A DNA stretch of 64,000 bases, from contig NZ_CP092333.1 in NCBI RefSeq assembly GCF_018595675.2, positions 4,550,001-4,614,000 on the forward strand, given 5' to 3'. Below are positions 49,749-60,002 of this stretch, piece after piece. The stretch is from Flavihumibacter fluvii (lineage in GTDB: Bacteria > Bacteroidota > Bacteroidia > Chitinophagales > Chitinophagaceae). The first letter of the stretch is position 1; each line of letters begins with the position of its first letter. The notes below the pieces were generated by a model. It saw only the letters and a program-made list of their open reading frames with translations, was not told the DNA's origin and ran no database searches. A program made the position numbers and the translations under genes.

Positions 49749-52274
49749 TTATTTTTTTAAAAATTGTCCGGGATAAGGTTCTGTGGCATTTGGCCGGGGA
49801 TACACCGTTTTTCCATTGACCCAAACAGTCAGAATGCCTTCTGAAAGGGCTTTCGGGTCCTGGATGGTGGCTTTATCAATAACCGTATTCTTATCAAAGA
49901 GCACCAGGTCGGCATAGTAGCCTGCTGCGATCACGCCCCTGTTTTTTATCCCTATGTGTTCAGCAGCCAGTGCGGTCATTTTGTATATGGCATTTTCGAG
50001 CGACATGATTTTTTTCTCCCTTACATAATGCCCCAGCACCCTGGTGAAAGACCCATGGCCCCTCGGATGTCCACCGCCCGATCCATCTGAACATATATTG
50101 GAATTGGGCCAGGCCAGCAAACTGATCACGTCTTCATCGGTCATCGATTTGCCCATAATGGTTTCAACATCATCCACCTCAGGATGTGTTTTCCCGTATT
50201 CATCAGCAATCGCGATAAGCCAGACCAATGTTTTTGCTGCTGATTCCTGGCGCATACCTGCAACCTCAGTAATTGTTCTGCCCTGGAAATCCGGGACCGG
50301 TGCATAAGTGACCAGCACGGAAGCTGATGGGTCAAATGTATGTTCCAGTGCATATTCTGCACTGGTTAGGTTCGTATAATCAGTTTTAGGGAATAATACT
50401 TTCAATGTGCTGCTCCAGAAATCGTAAGGATAAACATCTGCAGTAATATCCACACCAGCTAACCTTGCCCTTTGCAGTTTGGCCAGGAGCTCACTGGCGG
50501 TTTTCCAATCATCTTTCAGGCCGATTTTGAAATGGGAAATCTGGACGGGTATTTTTGCTTCACGGCCAATTGAAATGATTTCGTCGATGGCGGCTTCCAG
50601 GCCAATGTCTTCGCTGCGCATATGGCTGATATACCTGCCTTTCGCTGCTGCAGCCACTTTGGCGAGTTCCACTACCTCATGGAAATTGGAGAAATAGGCA
50701 CCTGCATATTCCAGCCCGGTCGATAATCCCAGCGAACCTTTTTTCATTTCATCGGCCAGGATAGCTTTCATTTTTTCAAGTTCAGCCTCAGTTGCCGGCC
50801 GGTTGAGCTGACCTTCTCCCATCACCCTTTCCCTTAGTTCAGTATGCCCGGTATAGGTGGCGATATTGGTGGCGACGGGTTGCGCTTTCATGTCAGCAAT
50901 AATACTATCCACATAACTTCCATAACCATCCTGGCCACTCACGATGGTGGTAATGCCCTGGCTCAGGGTGGCTATTGCTGCCGGTTGATTACGGAGCGAA
51001 CCCCGGTGATGGCTATGCGTATCTATGAAACCAGGGGCAAGTACTTTTCCCCCGCCATCAATAACATTTTCCCCCGGAAACGATTCAAGGTCGCCAACCG
51101 CCAATATTTTATCCCCTTCCAGTCGCACCGCTGCATTCCTTGCCGGGGTTCCTGTTCCGTCAATCAGGGAAACATGTTGAATTAATGTTGTTGCCGGAAC
51201 GGGATTGTCCTGCCCGTTAAACAATGACCGGGCATAGTTCAAACCCTTTGAATTGGAAGAACTACTCAGCACAATTAATGTGCGGTTGTTTTTCACATCC
51301 CTGCAAATCAGGTTCAGGAATCCACCCCATCCGCCCGTATGGTGGAACTGCTCATTTTCTTTATCAATAGCCCAGCCAAACCCATAGGGATAAGTGCTGT
51401 CGTTTTTCAATTTAACCGGCTTGAATGCCTCTTGTATGGTGGCTGGTTTAATGAGCTTTGATTTGTATAACTGTTGTTCCCATTTCAACAGGTCCTCTAC
51501 AGATGAATAGAGGTTGCCATCACCTGCAACACCATCCAGGTAACCTAAATCGTCCACCATTTTACGACCATTGAGATTCCTGAATCCAACCACATGGTTT
51601 TTAGGTATGGCCGGCATGGTTACCGTATAGAGGTAGGTGTCTTTTAATTTTAATGGTTGAATGATTTCCTTATTCAGGAATTCTGCCAATGGTTTTTTGC
51701 TGACGCGTTCGATTATTGATGCCAGGAAAAGGTAATTGGTATTACAATATTCCCATTTTGTGCCTGTTTCGAAATCCAGCATAGGTTTGATGCTGGCATA
51801 CAGTGCCAGGGTTTTGTTATTGGTAAGGGTATCTGTCATCCTCCTGATCTGCTGGAAGGGTTCAAAGTATTCAGTAATTCCGGAAGTATGCGTCATCAGG
51901 TGACGGATAGTAATAGTAGCATAAGGCAATTCCGGCAGGTATTGCTGGATGGGGTCATCAAACTGTAATAACCCGCGATCCGATAAAATCATGATGCCTG
52001 CGCAAATAAATTGTTTGGTAACAGAGGCCAGGTTGAAGGATGATGATGTTGTCAACGGTTCCCCGGTCCGGAAATCTGCAACACCAAAGGCTTTCTTATA
52101 AACCACCTTTCCTTTTTCTGCATAGAGTACCGTCCCATTAAAACGGCCGGTATTGTACAGGTAGGTGAGTGTGCTGTCTAATTTGCCTGCCTGGAAGGAT
52201 GAAAAGGTTGCAGGTTGTGCAAGAGCAAATATAGTGATGGCATGGGCGACAAGTAAAAGGAGGTATTTTCTCAT
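49749..52274 (-). CDS. Fusion of class C-like serine hydrolase and N-acyl-D-amino-acid deacylase, exported
   Basis: The ATG at 52274 starts a signal peptide (MRKYLLLLVAHAITIFALAQ). Residues about 25-350 form a beta-lactamase/D-aminopeptidase-like serine hydrolase with SVTK (Ser84, Lys87), YCNTNY and HTGGWGGF. Residues about 355-840 form a metal-dependent D-aminoacylase: DTHSHH, ISHMRSED, VQISHFK and CSDGSGGGHPRGHGSF. The position of the bridging Cys in the Alcaligenes enzyme reads GQDG (Asp). Together the domains could cut D-containing peptides and deacylate N-acyl-D-amino acids in the periplasm. The two domains normally occur as separate proteins. DUF1611 follows after 4 bases. Confidence 0.87.
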   Translation of the reverse strand: MRKYLLLLVAHAITIFALAQPATFSSFQAGKLDSTLTYLYNTGRFNGTVLYAEKGKVVYKKAFGVADFRTGEPLTTSSSFNLASVTKQFICAGIMILSDRGLLQFDDPIQQYLPELPYATITIRHLMTHTSGITEYFEPFQQIRRMTDTLTNNKTLALYASIKPMLDFETGTKWEYCNTNYLFLASIIERVSKKPLAEFLNKEIIQPLKLKDTYLYTVTMPAIPKNHVVGFRNLNGRKMVDDLGYLDGVAGDGNLYSSVEDLLKWEQQLYKSKLIKPATIQEAFKPVKLKNDSTYPYGFGWAIDKENEQFHHTGGWGGFLNLICRDVKNNRTLIVLSSSSNSKGLNYARSLFNGQDNPVPATTLIQHVSLIDGTGTPARNAAVRLEGDKILAVGDLESFPGENVIDGGGKVLAPGFIDTHSHHRGSLRNQPAAIATLSQGITTIVSGQDGYGSYVDSIIADMKAQPVATNIATYTGHTELRERVMGEGQLNRPATEAELEKMKAILADEMKKGSLGLSTGLEYAGAYFSNFHEVVELAKVAAAAKGRYISHMRSEDIGLEAAIDEIISIGREAKIPVQISHFKIGLKDDWKTASELLAKLQRARLAGVDITADVYPYDFWSSTLKVLFPKTDYTNLTSAEYALEHTFDPSASVLVTYAPVPDFQGRTITEVAGMRQESAAKTLVWLIAIADEYGKTHPEVDDVETIMGKSMTDEDVISLLAWPNSNICSDGSGGGHPRGHGSFTRVLGHYVREKKIMSLENAIYKMTALAAEHIGIKNRGVIAAGYYADLVLFDKNTVIDKATIQDPKALSEGILTVWVNGKTVYPRPNATEPYPGQFLKK

Positions 52275-52299
52275 AACCAACAAATGGAATGGAAATATA

Positions 52300-56319: not shown

Positions 56320-59049
56320 TTATAAACTCAGGCTCAGCCGCAAAAAGAAATAAGATCCATTAGCGCCCATCTGCACAGGTGCATATTTGAATACTCCGAA
56401 ATAACTATTCGCATATACCTGCTTGTCGGGATATACATTCAGTAAATTATTTGCACCGATAGTTATCGCCAATGCTTTGGAGACCGCATAGGAAACTGTT
56501 AAGTCAGTCACCACTTTGCCCTTGTGTTCCTGTAATTCACCAAAAGGATAACCATTGCGGGTAACTTTTCCAAAATAGGTAAAGCGCAGGCTGTTGGTGA
56601 ATTTCGCAAGCCGGTGGGTGATACCCAGGCTTCCCTTTGTCTGTGGACTATAGGTCTCAATGATAGACCGTTCAACCGGGCCAAAGAAAATATCTTCCTG
56701 GCCTTTCAGCGAGGCGGGGATGTTTAAGTCGTTGCCGACTTTGTTTTTATTGTAATTGCCCGCCAGCACGAAATCGAATATGTTCTTCCCGGCGTTTAAT
56801 TTATAGGAAGCCACCAGGTCAATGCCGCTTGTGGTGGTATTCACGGCATTTGCAAAGAAGCGTGCGGCTGACACACCGTAAGGTTGCAACATGTCCTGGA
56901 TCTCTTCAACCGGTTCACCATATGGATCAAACCCGAAGCTACCGGTAAGCGCTATACGATTATCAATTTTGATCAGGTAGCCATCAATTGTTAAGCGGAA
57001 TTTGCTATTAGGCGAAAAGGTAAATCCGGCACTGCCATTAACCGACGTTTCTTGTTTCAGTTTTGGAATACCCAGTCCTTTGGCTACCTCGCTGTTATTG
57101 GGAAAGAATCCCGACTGGCCCAGTTCGCCATTCGGCAGGATATCGGTACTGCTATAACTGAAATATTGCTGGTGCAGGCTGGGTGCCCGGAAACCTGTAC
57201 TCACCGCGCCCCGCAGGCCAAAAGCATCAGTGAACTGGTAGCGTAAGGCGAGTTTGCCATTGATGGTAGAACCGAAATCGCTGTAGTTTTCAAACCTGGC
57301 GGCAGCGGCTACGAGGAATTTTTTGGTGAGATCAATTTCCCCATCTGCATAGAGCGCAATATTATTGCGGCTTTGTTTTGTAGCATCCCTGGGCGAAAAT
57401 CCCACAAAGGATTGTGCGCCGCCGGCGAAATCCAGCAGGCTGGGATCGATGATGGTGGTGCCATCGGGGCTGTAGGCATAGTTCCGCCAGGAGCCTTCTT
57501 CACCTGCCTTGATCTGGTATTGGTCGATCCGGTATTCTGCACCCAGGGCCAGGTTCAGTCCGGCTGCCACACCCGGGAAGAATTTCCTGAGGTCGGCATT
57601 GACGGTGTTTTGGGTGAAGGCATGGCTGCCACTTTCGAAACTGGTTGGGCTCTTTTCCCGCAGGGTAGCGTTATTGGTGTTGGCCGTCGTATAGGCGAAA
57701 CTGTTATGCCCGAAGGTATTGGAGAGATCCAGTTTCCAATCTGCAGGCAACCGGAGCTTCACACCGGCGCTGATCGACTGGTCCCAGATCTTTGATTGCG
57801 TTGTTGGCTGGAAACCATTTGGGTACAGGTCTAACACCACATTGCTGTATTCGCTGGGCAGGCGGCGGAATCCGAAGCCGTCACCGGTACGGTAACTCAA
57901 TCCGCCGAAGGCGTAGAATTCATGTTGCTGTCTTGCGCCGAAAGGGAGGGCCAGGTTAACGAAGGCCGATCCATTCCTGATACGGGCATCGCCTACTGCA
58001 AAATTATGGTCATCACGGCTAAGCTTACGCGCAGCTAAAACGCTGTCGTCATAAGCCCTGGAAGCCGCCGGGTTTTCCGTGAAGTCATACGCGAAATAAT
58101 TACCCAGCGCACTCTGGTCATAAATGATCAGGTCGTGGTTCTGGGTGCGGTTGGTGCGGTCGCGGTATAACAGGTCGCCGGTCAGGTTCAGGTAGCCTCC
58201 CTGTTTGCCCAATGAAAATCCTTTATTCAGGTTGAGTTGCGCTGTACCACCGTCACCTTTTGCGGTGATACCGGCTGTAGCATTGGCATTGAGCTGGTGG
58301 TCATTTTTTTTCAGCACCACATTGATCACACCGGCAATAGCATCAGATCCATATTGCGCTGCGGCGCCATCGCGCAGCACTTCAATGCGTTCGATGGCTG
58401 CAGCAGGAATAGTGTTCAAATCTGTGCCCACACTACCGTTACCCACCGTTCCCTGGTAATTCACCAGCGATGTGGTATGGCGGCGTTTGCCATTGATCAG
58501 CACCAGCACCTGGTCTGGACCGAGTCCGCGCAGACTGGCCGGGTCAATATGTTCCGTACCATCCGCCGAGGACTGCCGGTTGGAATTGAAGGAGGGTGCC
58601 AGGTAGGTAAGGGCCTGGTTCAGGTCGTATTGCGGCAGGATACTGGTGACATTCCTGAAATCAAGGATATCAACTGGTACAGCAGATTTAATATTGCTCC
58701 TGCCTGATCTTGATCCTACAACAGTGACCTCACCCAGGAAACCATTGGCCTGTTCCAGCTGGATAAAGCTTCCTGGAGTAATGGAATCGATCGCTATGGT
58801 CAATTCACGATAACCAACAGCTGATATGACCAGGGTGTTAGCCTTGTTGCGGTCTACCCTGATCGAAAAACGGCCATCTACATCAGTTGATGTAACTGAT
58901 ATAGAAGCATTATCGCGCACTGTTGCGCCAAACAGGGGATCTTTGCCTGCACCGCGCACCTGGCTATTGATTATGATGGCTTGTGCCTGCAGCAGGATCG
59001 GAAATATGATGGTTGCGACTAGTAAAATCAGGAAAGGTCTCATGGTCAT
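56320..59049 (-). CDS. TonB-dependent receptor with carboxypeptidase-like N-terminal domain
   Basis: A 909-residue outer-membrane receptor: signal peptide (FLILLVATIIFPILLQAQA), a CarboxypepD-regulatory-like domain (about 25-105; DPLFGATVRDNASISVTSTD), a plug with LRGLGPDQVLVLINGKRR and IERIEVLRDGAAAQYGSDAI, and a barrel ending NGSYFFLRLSLSL. It is not a SusC protein (no SusD gene follows). Its ATG overlaps the stop of the DUF62 gene (ATGA, 59046-59049), so the two are translationally coupled. The coupling suggests it imports a substrate or product of that enzyme. Confidence 0.9.
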   Translation of the reverse strand: MTMRPFLILLVATIIFPILLQAQAIIINSQVRGAGKDPLFGATVRDNASISVTSTDVDGRFSIRVDRNKANTLVISAVGYRELTIAIDSITPGSFIQLEQANGFLGEVTVVGSRSGRSNIKSAVPVDILDFRNVTSILPQYDLNQALTYLAPSFNSNRQSSADGTEHIDPASLRGLGPDQVLVLINGKRRHTTSLVNYQGTVGNGSVGTDLNTIPAAAIERIEVLRDGAAAQYGSDAIAGVINVVLKKNDHQLNANATAGITAKGDGGTAQLNLNKGFSLGKQGGYLNLTGDLLYRDRTNRTQNHDLIIYDQSALGNYFAYDFTENPAASRAYDDSVLAARKLSRDDHNFAVGDARIRNGSAFVNLALPFGARQQHEFYAFGGLSYRTGDGFGFRRLPSEYSNVVLDLYPNGFQPTTQSKIWDQSISAGVKLRLPADWKLDLSNTFGHNSFAYTTANTNNATLREKSPTSFESGSHAFTQNTVNADLRKFFPGVAAGLNLALGAEYRIDQYQIKAGEEGSWRNYAYSPDGTTIIDPSLLDFAGGAQSFVGFSPRDATKQSRNNIALYADGEIDLTKKFLVAAAARFENYSDFGSTINGKLALRYQFTDAFGLRGAVSTGFRAPSLHQQYFSYSSTDILPNGELGQSGFFPNNSEVAKGLGIPKLKQETSVNGSAGFTFSPNSKFRLTIDGYLIKIDNRIALTGSFGFDPYGEPVEEIQDMLQPYGVSAARFFANAVNTTTSGIDLVASYKLNAGKNIFDFVLAGNYNKNKVGNDLNIPASLKGQEDIFFGPVERSIIETYSPQTKGSLGITHRLAKFTNSLRFTYFGKVTRNGYPFGELQEHKGKVVTDLTVSYAVSKALAITIGANNLLNVYPDKQVYANSYFGVFKYAPVQMGANGSYFFLRLSLSL

Positions 59050-59969
59050 TTGGTTTTAGCGGTTATTTTTTGAATGGTCACCTGCCAGTTGCCGCCGCTG
59101 CTTACACCGTGTTTAGCAGCGAAACTGCCCTGGTTGATCCCGAAGGCAAATTGCAGGAGGCTATTGGCATAGGCGACGGGTTGCCCGGCTTTCACGGCAG
59201 AAAAAGTAGTGGCAAAGGGCATAGTACCGGTATAGACGGGCTTTTTATTATGGAAGATGGAAACCTTCAGGAGGTCGCCATATTGAATGCCGTTTTCTTT
59301 CAGTAAGGCCAGTGGAATATTGGTCCACACATTACCGTATTGTACATCCAGCACAGGTATGGTTCCACTGAAGATGCCTTTTTCAATGCGGGCGGGCAAA
59401 TAGGTTATTTTGACAATTTCAGGAGGCAGGGCCGGACCCACTTCATCGTACCGGATCACCCCCGCAGCGAGTCGCGCTCCGGTGTAAGCATATACATCGC
59501 GGCCATGGAAAGTATAGGATTCATTGGATCCCTTCAGGCGGTTCAGCTTTTCATCGATCTGCCGCAACGAATCGATACCAATGGTTTCTGCCAAAAGGGT
59601 CAGGGTGCCATTATCTGGTGTAACAATAAACTGGCCGGTCCGCAATTTGGCCACCACCGATTTCCGCACCGAACCTACCCCGGGGTCAACTACCGAAACA
59701 AAAACGGTTCCAACCGGCCAGTACCCCACGGTCTGCTGCAGCCGGTATGCAGCCTGCCAGATGTCGAATGCGGGGATTTCATGCGTCAGGTCAAATTGTT
59801 TGAGTTGTGGCGATACGCCATAGGCTACCCCCTTCATGGCCGAAACGGCACCATCTTTCAGGCCGAAGTCGGTCTGGAAAACCAGGGCGCCATTCTGGGC
59901 CGTTCCCGAAAAGGGGCACAACCCATAGCTCACCAACAACATTACATATACGATTATTCGCTGTTTCAT
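59046..59969 (-). CDS. Exported DUF62 (SAM hydroxide adenosyltransferase family) protein
   Basis: The 307-residue product matches the DUF62/SAM hydrolase family: VFQTDFGLKDG (Asp34 region), VVDPGVGSVRK (Asp95, Arg102), TPDNGTLT and YTFHGRDVYA (His155). These are the Asp-Arg-His residues that activate water in SAM hydroxide adenosyltransferases, which split S-adenosylmethionine into adenosine and methionine. Unlike the usual cytoplasmic enzymes it begins with a signal peptide (MKQRIIVYVMLLVSYGLCPF, then SGTAQ), so it should act in the periplasm. It is the first gene of a two-gene operon with a TonB-dependent receptor. Confidence 0.87.
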   Translation of the reverse strand: MKQRIIVYVMLLVSYGLCPFSGTAQNGALVFQTDFGLKDGAVSAMKGVAYGVSPQLKQFDLTHEIPAFDIWQAAYRLQQTVGYWPVGTVFVSVVDPGVGSVRKSVVAKLRTGQFIVTPDNGTLTLLAETIGIDSLRQIDEKLNRLKGSNESYTFHGRDVYAYTGARLAAGVIRYDEVGPALPPEIVKITYLPARIEKGIFSGTIPVLDVQYGNVWTNIPLALLKENGIQYGDLLKVSIFHNKKPVYTGTMPFATTFSAVKAGQPVAYANSLLQFAFGINQGSFAAKHGVSSGGNWQVTIQKITAKTK

Positions 59970-59986: not shown

Positions 59987-60002
59987 CAAACTTACAAATT
60001 TA
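59987..60002 (-). promoter_or_regulatory. Two adjacent -7-like boxes before the DUF62 gene
   Basis: On the minus strand TAAATTTG (60002-59995) is directly followed by TAAGTTTG (59994-59987), both exact TAnnTTTG matches, 18-33 bases before the ATG. Only one can be the main box; the pair may give two start points. Confidence 0.45.

Follow-up and report, generated by a model that had tools for sequence, protein, structure and literature searches.

Two adjacent genes of Flavihumibacter fluvii are described here, one encoding a DUF62-family enzyme with a predicted export signal and the other a TonB-dependent receptor (TBDR). They lie on contig NZ_CP092333.1, the single contig (5.0 Mb) of this genome, in a stretch of 64,000 nucleotides (positions 4,550,001 to 4,614,000) that we analyzed as a whole and refer to as the window; positions are counted from its first letter. 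The features of the pair are the following:

59046..59969, minus strand: putatively exported DUF62 protein (SAM_HAT_N + SAM_HAT_C) of 307 amino acids, a predicted periplasmic S-adenosylmethionine (SAM) hydrolase
59898..59969, minus strand: predicted Sec-type signal peptide of the enzyme, about residues 1-24, with a cleavage site near TAQ/NG that is not fixed
59685..59687, minus strand: codon of triad residue D95, Asp in 130/130 exported loci
59664..59666, minus strand: codon of triad residue R102, Arg in 129/130 exported loci
59505..59507, minus strand: codon of triad residue H155, His in 128/130 exported loci
59046..59049, minus strand: ATGA, 4 nucleotides in which the stop codon of the enzyme and the start codon of the receptor overlap, a translational-coupling geometry
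56320..59049, minus strand: TBDR of subfamily A, 909 amino acids, with CarboxypepD_reg-like, plug and barrel domains
59995..60002, minus strand: TAAATTTG, weakly suggestive of a Bacteroidota -7 promoter element

The open reading frames (ORFs), strands and ends given in the initial annotation held up, and Pfam confirmed the DUF62 and TBDR domains it had named. The claimed overlap is also present, i.e., the TGA of the enzyme overlaps the ATG of the receptor (junction sequence AAATGACCATGAGA); the receptor start is ambiguous, with another in-frame ATG 6 nucleotides further on. Both flanking genes, aldose-epimerase-like and DEAD-box helicase, are on the opposite strand, and the enzyme and receptor therefore look like a two-gene unit. 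No SusD-like gene was found among the flanking genes tested by domain search. The element TAAATTTG resembles TAnnTTTG, the consensus of the Bacteroidota -7 element. Riboswitch control was considered and set aside, as an Rfam search of the whole window gave no family at gathering score.

The enzyme scores 169.9 bits with SAM_HAT_N (cut-off 26.3, E 3.8e-50) and 64.6 bits with SAM_HAT_C (cut-off 25.5, E 1.1e-17), and with both domains above cut-off it belongs to the SAM hydroxide adenosyltransferases. Its AlphaFold2 model, built with 34 sequences in the input, has a mean predicted local distance difference test (pLDDT) value of 90.5, and all 40 solved chains that Foldseek matched at E up to 0.001 are of the DUF62/SAM halogenase family; the best is 2zbu (template modeling score 0.86 on target length, 31% identity), and SAM-bound SalL is also matched. 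None of the 16 matching solved sequences is a close relative, and we could find no solved or curated member of the exported subfamily among the databases compared. The residues D95, R102 and H155, which the initial annotation had already picked out, align in register with the Thermotoga enzyme (2zbu), whereas SalL has Y, T and Y at these positions. Passages of PMC10491745 and PMC4859513 describe the Asp-Arg-His triad (D68-R75-H127 in the numbering of PMC4859513) as the mark of hydrolysis versus halogenation. Because the triad is in place, hydrolysis rather than halogenation is the likely chemistry; a halogenase identity was ruled out by the full triad and by the fluorinase model, which gives 78.2 bits against a cut-off of 400. 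D34 and N213 are likewise retained across the exported clade. Assignment of the predicted protein to the DUF62 hydrolases is thus well supported.

The N-terminus of the enzyme, MKQRIIVYVMLLVSYGLCPFSGTAQ-NG, has a 10-residue Kyte-Doolittle maximum of 2.90 by our own heuristic (not SignalP), in agreement with the signal peptide originally proposed. With this hydrophobicity heuristic, which calls an N-terminus signal-like at a mean hydropathy of 1.7 over 10 residues (a threshold chosen after the first values had been seen), the N-terminus is signal-like in 115/115 distinct loci left after 15 had been set aside as non-Bacteroidota; 26 of the 115 also fit a lipobox pattern. Among the 15 loci set aside as non-Bacteroidota, 14 are signal-like; the fifteenth (L181) was unparsed there and shows a signal-like N-terminus on separate reading. 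Export of this enzyme clade out of the cytoplasm is likely on these N-termini.

Please note that the 115 loci are a non-random sample, that one of them (L155) is titled candidate division KSB1, that a scan of named genomes gave the best 80 of 562 relatives (592 stretches), and that the genome samples overlap one another. The exported clade is mostly 50-67% identical to the window enzyme. The best 80 of the 562 relatives include Chitinophaga, Pedobacter, Mucilaginibacter, Flavobacterium, Dyadobacter and Spirosoma, and also Aeromonas, Edwardsiella, a Pasteurellaceae metagenome-assembled genome and one Clostridium. Among 194 genomes of the window's family, any DUF62 match occurs in 186 and a close form of the enzyme in 47 (46 at 52-100% identity, one at 38%); the close form was found in 13/392 genomes of the phylum (E at or below 1e-100), 11/396 of the class, 8/106 of family f3 and 8/106 of genus g99. 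Within the window's own genus, one genome (G008) is without it. The exported form is also present in 2374 of 5426 complete Escherichia coli genomes (44%; e.g., L201:7920-8822), sits between yigE and uvrD in both regions read, and has a visible signal sequence in the SMS-3-5 copy; it is missing at this locus in K-12 MG1655. In E. coli KE47 the exported SAM-hydrolase gene is annotated as a pseudogene. A viral origin was considered and set aside; one IMG/VR contig (L200), whose neighboring genes were inspected by eye only, carries the gene.

The expectation that homologues carry a signal peptide holds for the orthologous clade and fails outside it. None of 20 cytosolic paralogues (L226-L245), a form widespread in this bacterial family, has a signal-like N-terminus, and none has the full Asp-Arg-His triad. 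The window's genome itself has a second DUF62 gene, non-exported and without the triad (L226 has N, D and Y at the triad positions). Four distant relatives (L106, L117-L119) are all without a signal, and it is absent from the three copies read, one of Listeria and two of Enterococcus faecium, among members 47-50% identical to the window enzyme. On two E. faecium plasmids (L204:6010-10011 and L205:481-4446), the only cases of this linkage found in Firmicutes, the non-exported DUF62 gene is followed by genes for energy-coupling factor (ECF) transporter components S, A and T, and on L204 mmuM and an S-methylmethionine-permease-like gene are near it.

Judged by its domains (Plug 63.4 bits, beta-barrel 132.3 bits), the receptor is a TBDR of the usual kind, with an uncommon, specific partner. 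It is not of the SusC/RagA type (TIGR04056, 81.7 of 368.25 bits), and no NCBIfam cut-off is reached by it. Its model is of middling quality (mean pLDDT 69.6); the fold is nearest to siderophore receptors, and B12, haem and transferrin receptors are matched as well. None of the top 50 fold matches exceeds 16% identity, so the fold says little about the cargo. In quick trees with Shimodaira-Hasegawa-like approximate likelihood ratio (SH-aLRT) supports, 14 rows including the window's receptor form a single clade, subfamily A, with support of 99. The A receptor is downstream of the enzyme on the same strand in the window, L061, L071, L129, L136, L145 and L154, divergent from it in L109, L110, L169, L171 and L192, and in L134 and L139 upstream of it, separated by one intervening gene. 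The downstream arrangement needs 6 changes on the enzyme tree, at least 4 of them forced by well-supported branches, and the pairing was therefore gained or lost several times. A second subfamily, B (11 loci), is upstream of the enzyme on the same strand, with one gene between in L084; B-related receptors are also encoded at sites apart from the enzyme. Beyond the window end there is a second TBDR, of the B type (G000:C1:4619406-4621892), some 9.4 kb upstream of the enzyme gene; in G155 a relative is found some 14.6 kb upstream.

Around the 115 loci, a TBDR is found within two genes of the enzyme in 25, being immediately adjacent in 22, and the proposal that it would be the constant neighbor is rejected on this count. 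By slot, TBDRs occupy 22/226 immediate neighbors versus 3/724 positions three to six genes away; none is within two genes of the 20 cytosolic paralogues or in the 15 loci set apart as non-Bacteroidota. Among same-strand neighbors within 200 bp, TBDRs form the largest cluster (19/146 ORFs), followed by a LiaF-like membrane protein (8 ORFs, six loci). TBDR genes are common, with 49 Plug matches in the window's own genome; chance adjacency was judged unlikely given the enrichment at immediate neighbors, although the loci are related to one another. As anticipated, the pairing extends beyond the genus, to Chitinophaga, other Chitinophagaceae, Pedobacter, Flavobacterium and Microscillaceae, but it does not cover the genus itself: two genomes of it, G099 (L060/L120) and G155 (L069), keep the enzyme and the flanking genes with no receptor within two genes.

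The A receptors were mostly collected via enzyme loci, and a fair test therefore starts from the receptor. Receptor-led searches covered 194 and 396 genomes with the window's receptor as the query (4 and 2 candidates scored per genome, respectively) and two sets of 106 genomes with the receptors of L145 and L110 (8 candidates per genome). A receptors of at least 50% identity were found in 10 genomes, namely the window's, G049, G178 and seven of genus g99, and in all 10 an A receptor is beside the enzyme; G178 has one extra A-like piece, with surroundings unread, on a different contig (C205). The search of 106 genomes with the L145 query returned no receptor at 50% identity or more, and receptors only 42-48% identical occur in genomes without a close enzyme, e.g., G153, G095, G186 and G089. 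Of the 106 g99 genomes, 8 have the enzyme and 7 the A receptor, and all 7 with the receptor also have the enzyme (Fisher 3.3e-10); as elsewhere, the Fisher value treats loci or genomes as independent though they are related. All seven of these A receptors are divergent from the enzyme match and 150-351 bp from it. We consider the receptor-enzyme association good.

Other neighbors were also looked at. L134 and L139 have A receptor, amino-acid permease and exported enzyme in this order on one strand (the L134 permease was tested as PF13520, the L139 copy assigned by clustering), and in L138, at the edge of a contig, the permease and the enzyme are retained. A FecR-like gene is just past the A receptor in L061. 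Besides TBDRs, the four annotated among the repeated co-directional clusters are LiaF-like, rhodopsin-like, DUF305 and permease, none of them cobalamin or iron genes. Four loci (three titled Spirosoma) share the gene that immediately precedes the exported enzyme in the same orientation, and the copy tested (L144:7080-7943) is bacteriorhodopsin-like; MetH is three genes upstream in the Siphonobacter locus L135, a single case to which we give no weight. Elsewhere in the window (49749-52283, minus strand) there is a protein of 844 amino acids with a beta-lactamase-like serine hydrolase domain and an amidohydrolase domain.

The sequences thus speak for a signal-like N-terminus, the DUF62 family, the triad, the gene order and a recurrent receptor linkage; from these we infer the localization, SAM as the substrate, the receptor cargo and a salvage role, as follows. 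Sec would carry the enzyme to the periplasm, where some relatives may be tethered as lipoproteins; water activated by the triad would attack C5' of SAM or a close adenosyl-sulfonium; and the products, adenosine and methionine, would then be taken up by the cells. Where present, the subfamily-A receptor would bring the substrate, which is scarce and charged, through the outer membrane, and the amino-acid permease found between receptor and enzyme in two relatives may import methionine. This permease, the ECF genes on the E. faecium plasmids and the export signal together suggest that the substrate comes from outside. A salvage module in which imported SAM or a close analogue is hydrolyzed in the periplasm to adenosine and methionine stands, in our estimate, at an even chance. 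Its more specific form, dedicated TonB-dependent uptake and salvage of SAM, with import by the A receptor, cleavage by the periplasmic DUF62 enzyme and uptake of the products by permeases, we put forward tentatively.

Several observations weigh against the salvage reading. As many as 90/115 loci, and all 15 non-Bacteroidota loci, are without a TBDR within two genes, so the receptor is dispensable. SAM, at about 400 Da, could use porins. The exclusivity of the A receptor rests on the 10 genomes of the receptor-led searches. The 38% identical relative L105 has lost R and H of the triad. Among the non-exported relatives, an IS6 transposase gene separates the mmuM/permease block from the DUF62 gene on L204, and in the one Listeria region read no importer was found beside the DUF62 gene.

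It is also conceivable, but unlikely in our view, that the exported protein is a SAM hydrolase whose receptor carries a larger adenosyl-bearing or SAM-derived compound (e.g., an adenosylated cofactor) that is trimmed or released in the periplasm. The siderophore, B12, haem and transferrin receptors among the fold matches carry cargoes larger than SAM, both TBDR subfamilies adjoin the same enzyme, and the FecR-like gene of L061 fits this possibility as well. However, the active-site positions match those of SAM hydrolases, the four annotated neighbor clusters hold neither cobalamin nor iron genes, and fold matches at such low identity have little bearing on cargo.

We are about equally doubtful of a housekeeping or detoxifying enzyme that disposes of SAM, leaked or external and perhaps as the (R,S) epimer, and plays no part in import, with the TBDR neighbors being incidental. 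The majority of loci without a nearby TBDR and the abundance of TBDR genes agree with this, and StDUF62 is described in passages of PMC12120602 as selective for hydrolysis of (R,S)-SAM; yet TBDRs are enriched right beside the enzyme, not three to six genes off, nor beside the cytosolic paralogue, and enzyme and A receptor co-occur in genus g99. That the substrate of the exported clade is something other than SAM or a close analogue is quite improbable: position 271 is Leu in 127/130 exported loci where SalL has Arg, and 0/4 tested members or near members (window, E. coli, E. faecium and Listeria) reach the NCBIfam (R)-SAM hydrolase cut-offs, but the Thermotoga hydrolase is likewise without Arg at 271, and D34, N213 and the triad are all retained. 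The Arg that SalL and also fluorinase have at the position matching 271 binds the methionine carboxylate.

To come back to the salvage of SAM, the association is reproducible and the enzyme clade looks exported over a wide range; the salvage function is testable and as yet unproven. An apparently exported branch, in a family regarded as splitting SAM within cells, is beside an importer in some Bacteroidota, which suggests that SAM or a similar compound is salvaged from outside. If true, this would give DUF62 enzymes, whose role is described as unsettled in passages of PMC10491745 and PMC12120602, a physiological role and would add SAM to the cargoes of TBDRs. Among the open-licence PMC papers listed in our searches, none reports an exported DUF62 enzyme or TonB-dependent SAM uptake, which is not proof of absence.

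Compared with known systems, the window enzyme has both domains, the fold and (versus 2zbu) the triad in common with the SAM hydroxide adenosyltransferases (PF01887 + PF20257; PH0463, MJ1651 and T. maritima 2zbu/2zbv), from which it differs in its signal-like N-terminus, in its identity of 26-31%, in Trp at 71 and 215, and in scores under the NCBIfam equivalog cut-offs for (R)-SAM hydrolases (129.8 of 350 and 113.8 of 470 bits). With the SalL chlorinase and fluorinase it shares the fold, and with SalL an NxW motif in the C-terminal part; SalL is without the triad that the window enzyme has, and the fluorinase model stays at 78.2 versus 400. The receptor has plug and barrel in common with the siderophore and B12 receptors (FepA/PfeA, BtuB), whereas it falls under every NCBIfam cut-off and belongs to a subfamily of its own, A, that is linked to the enzyme.

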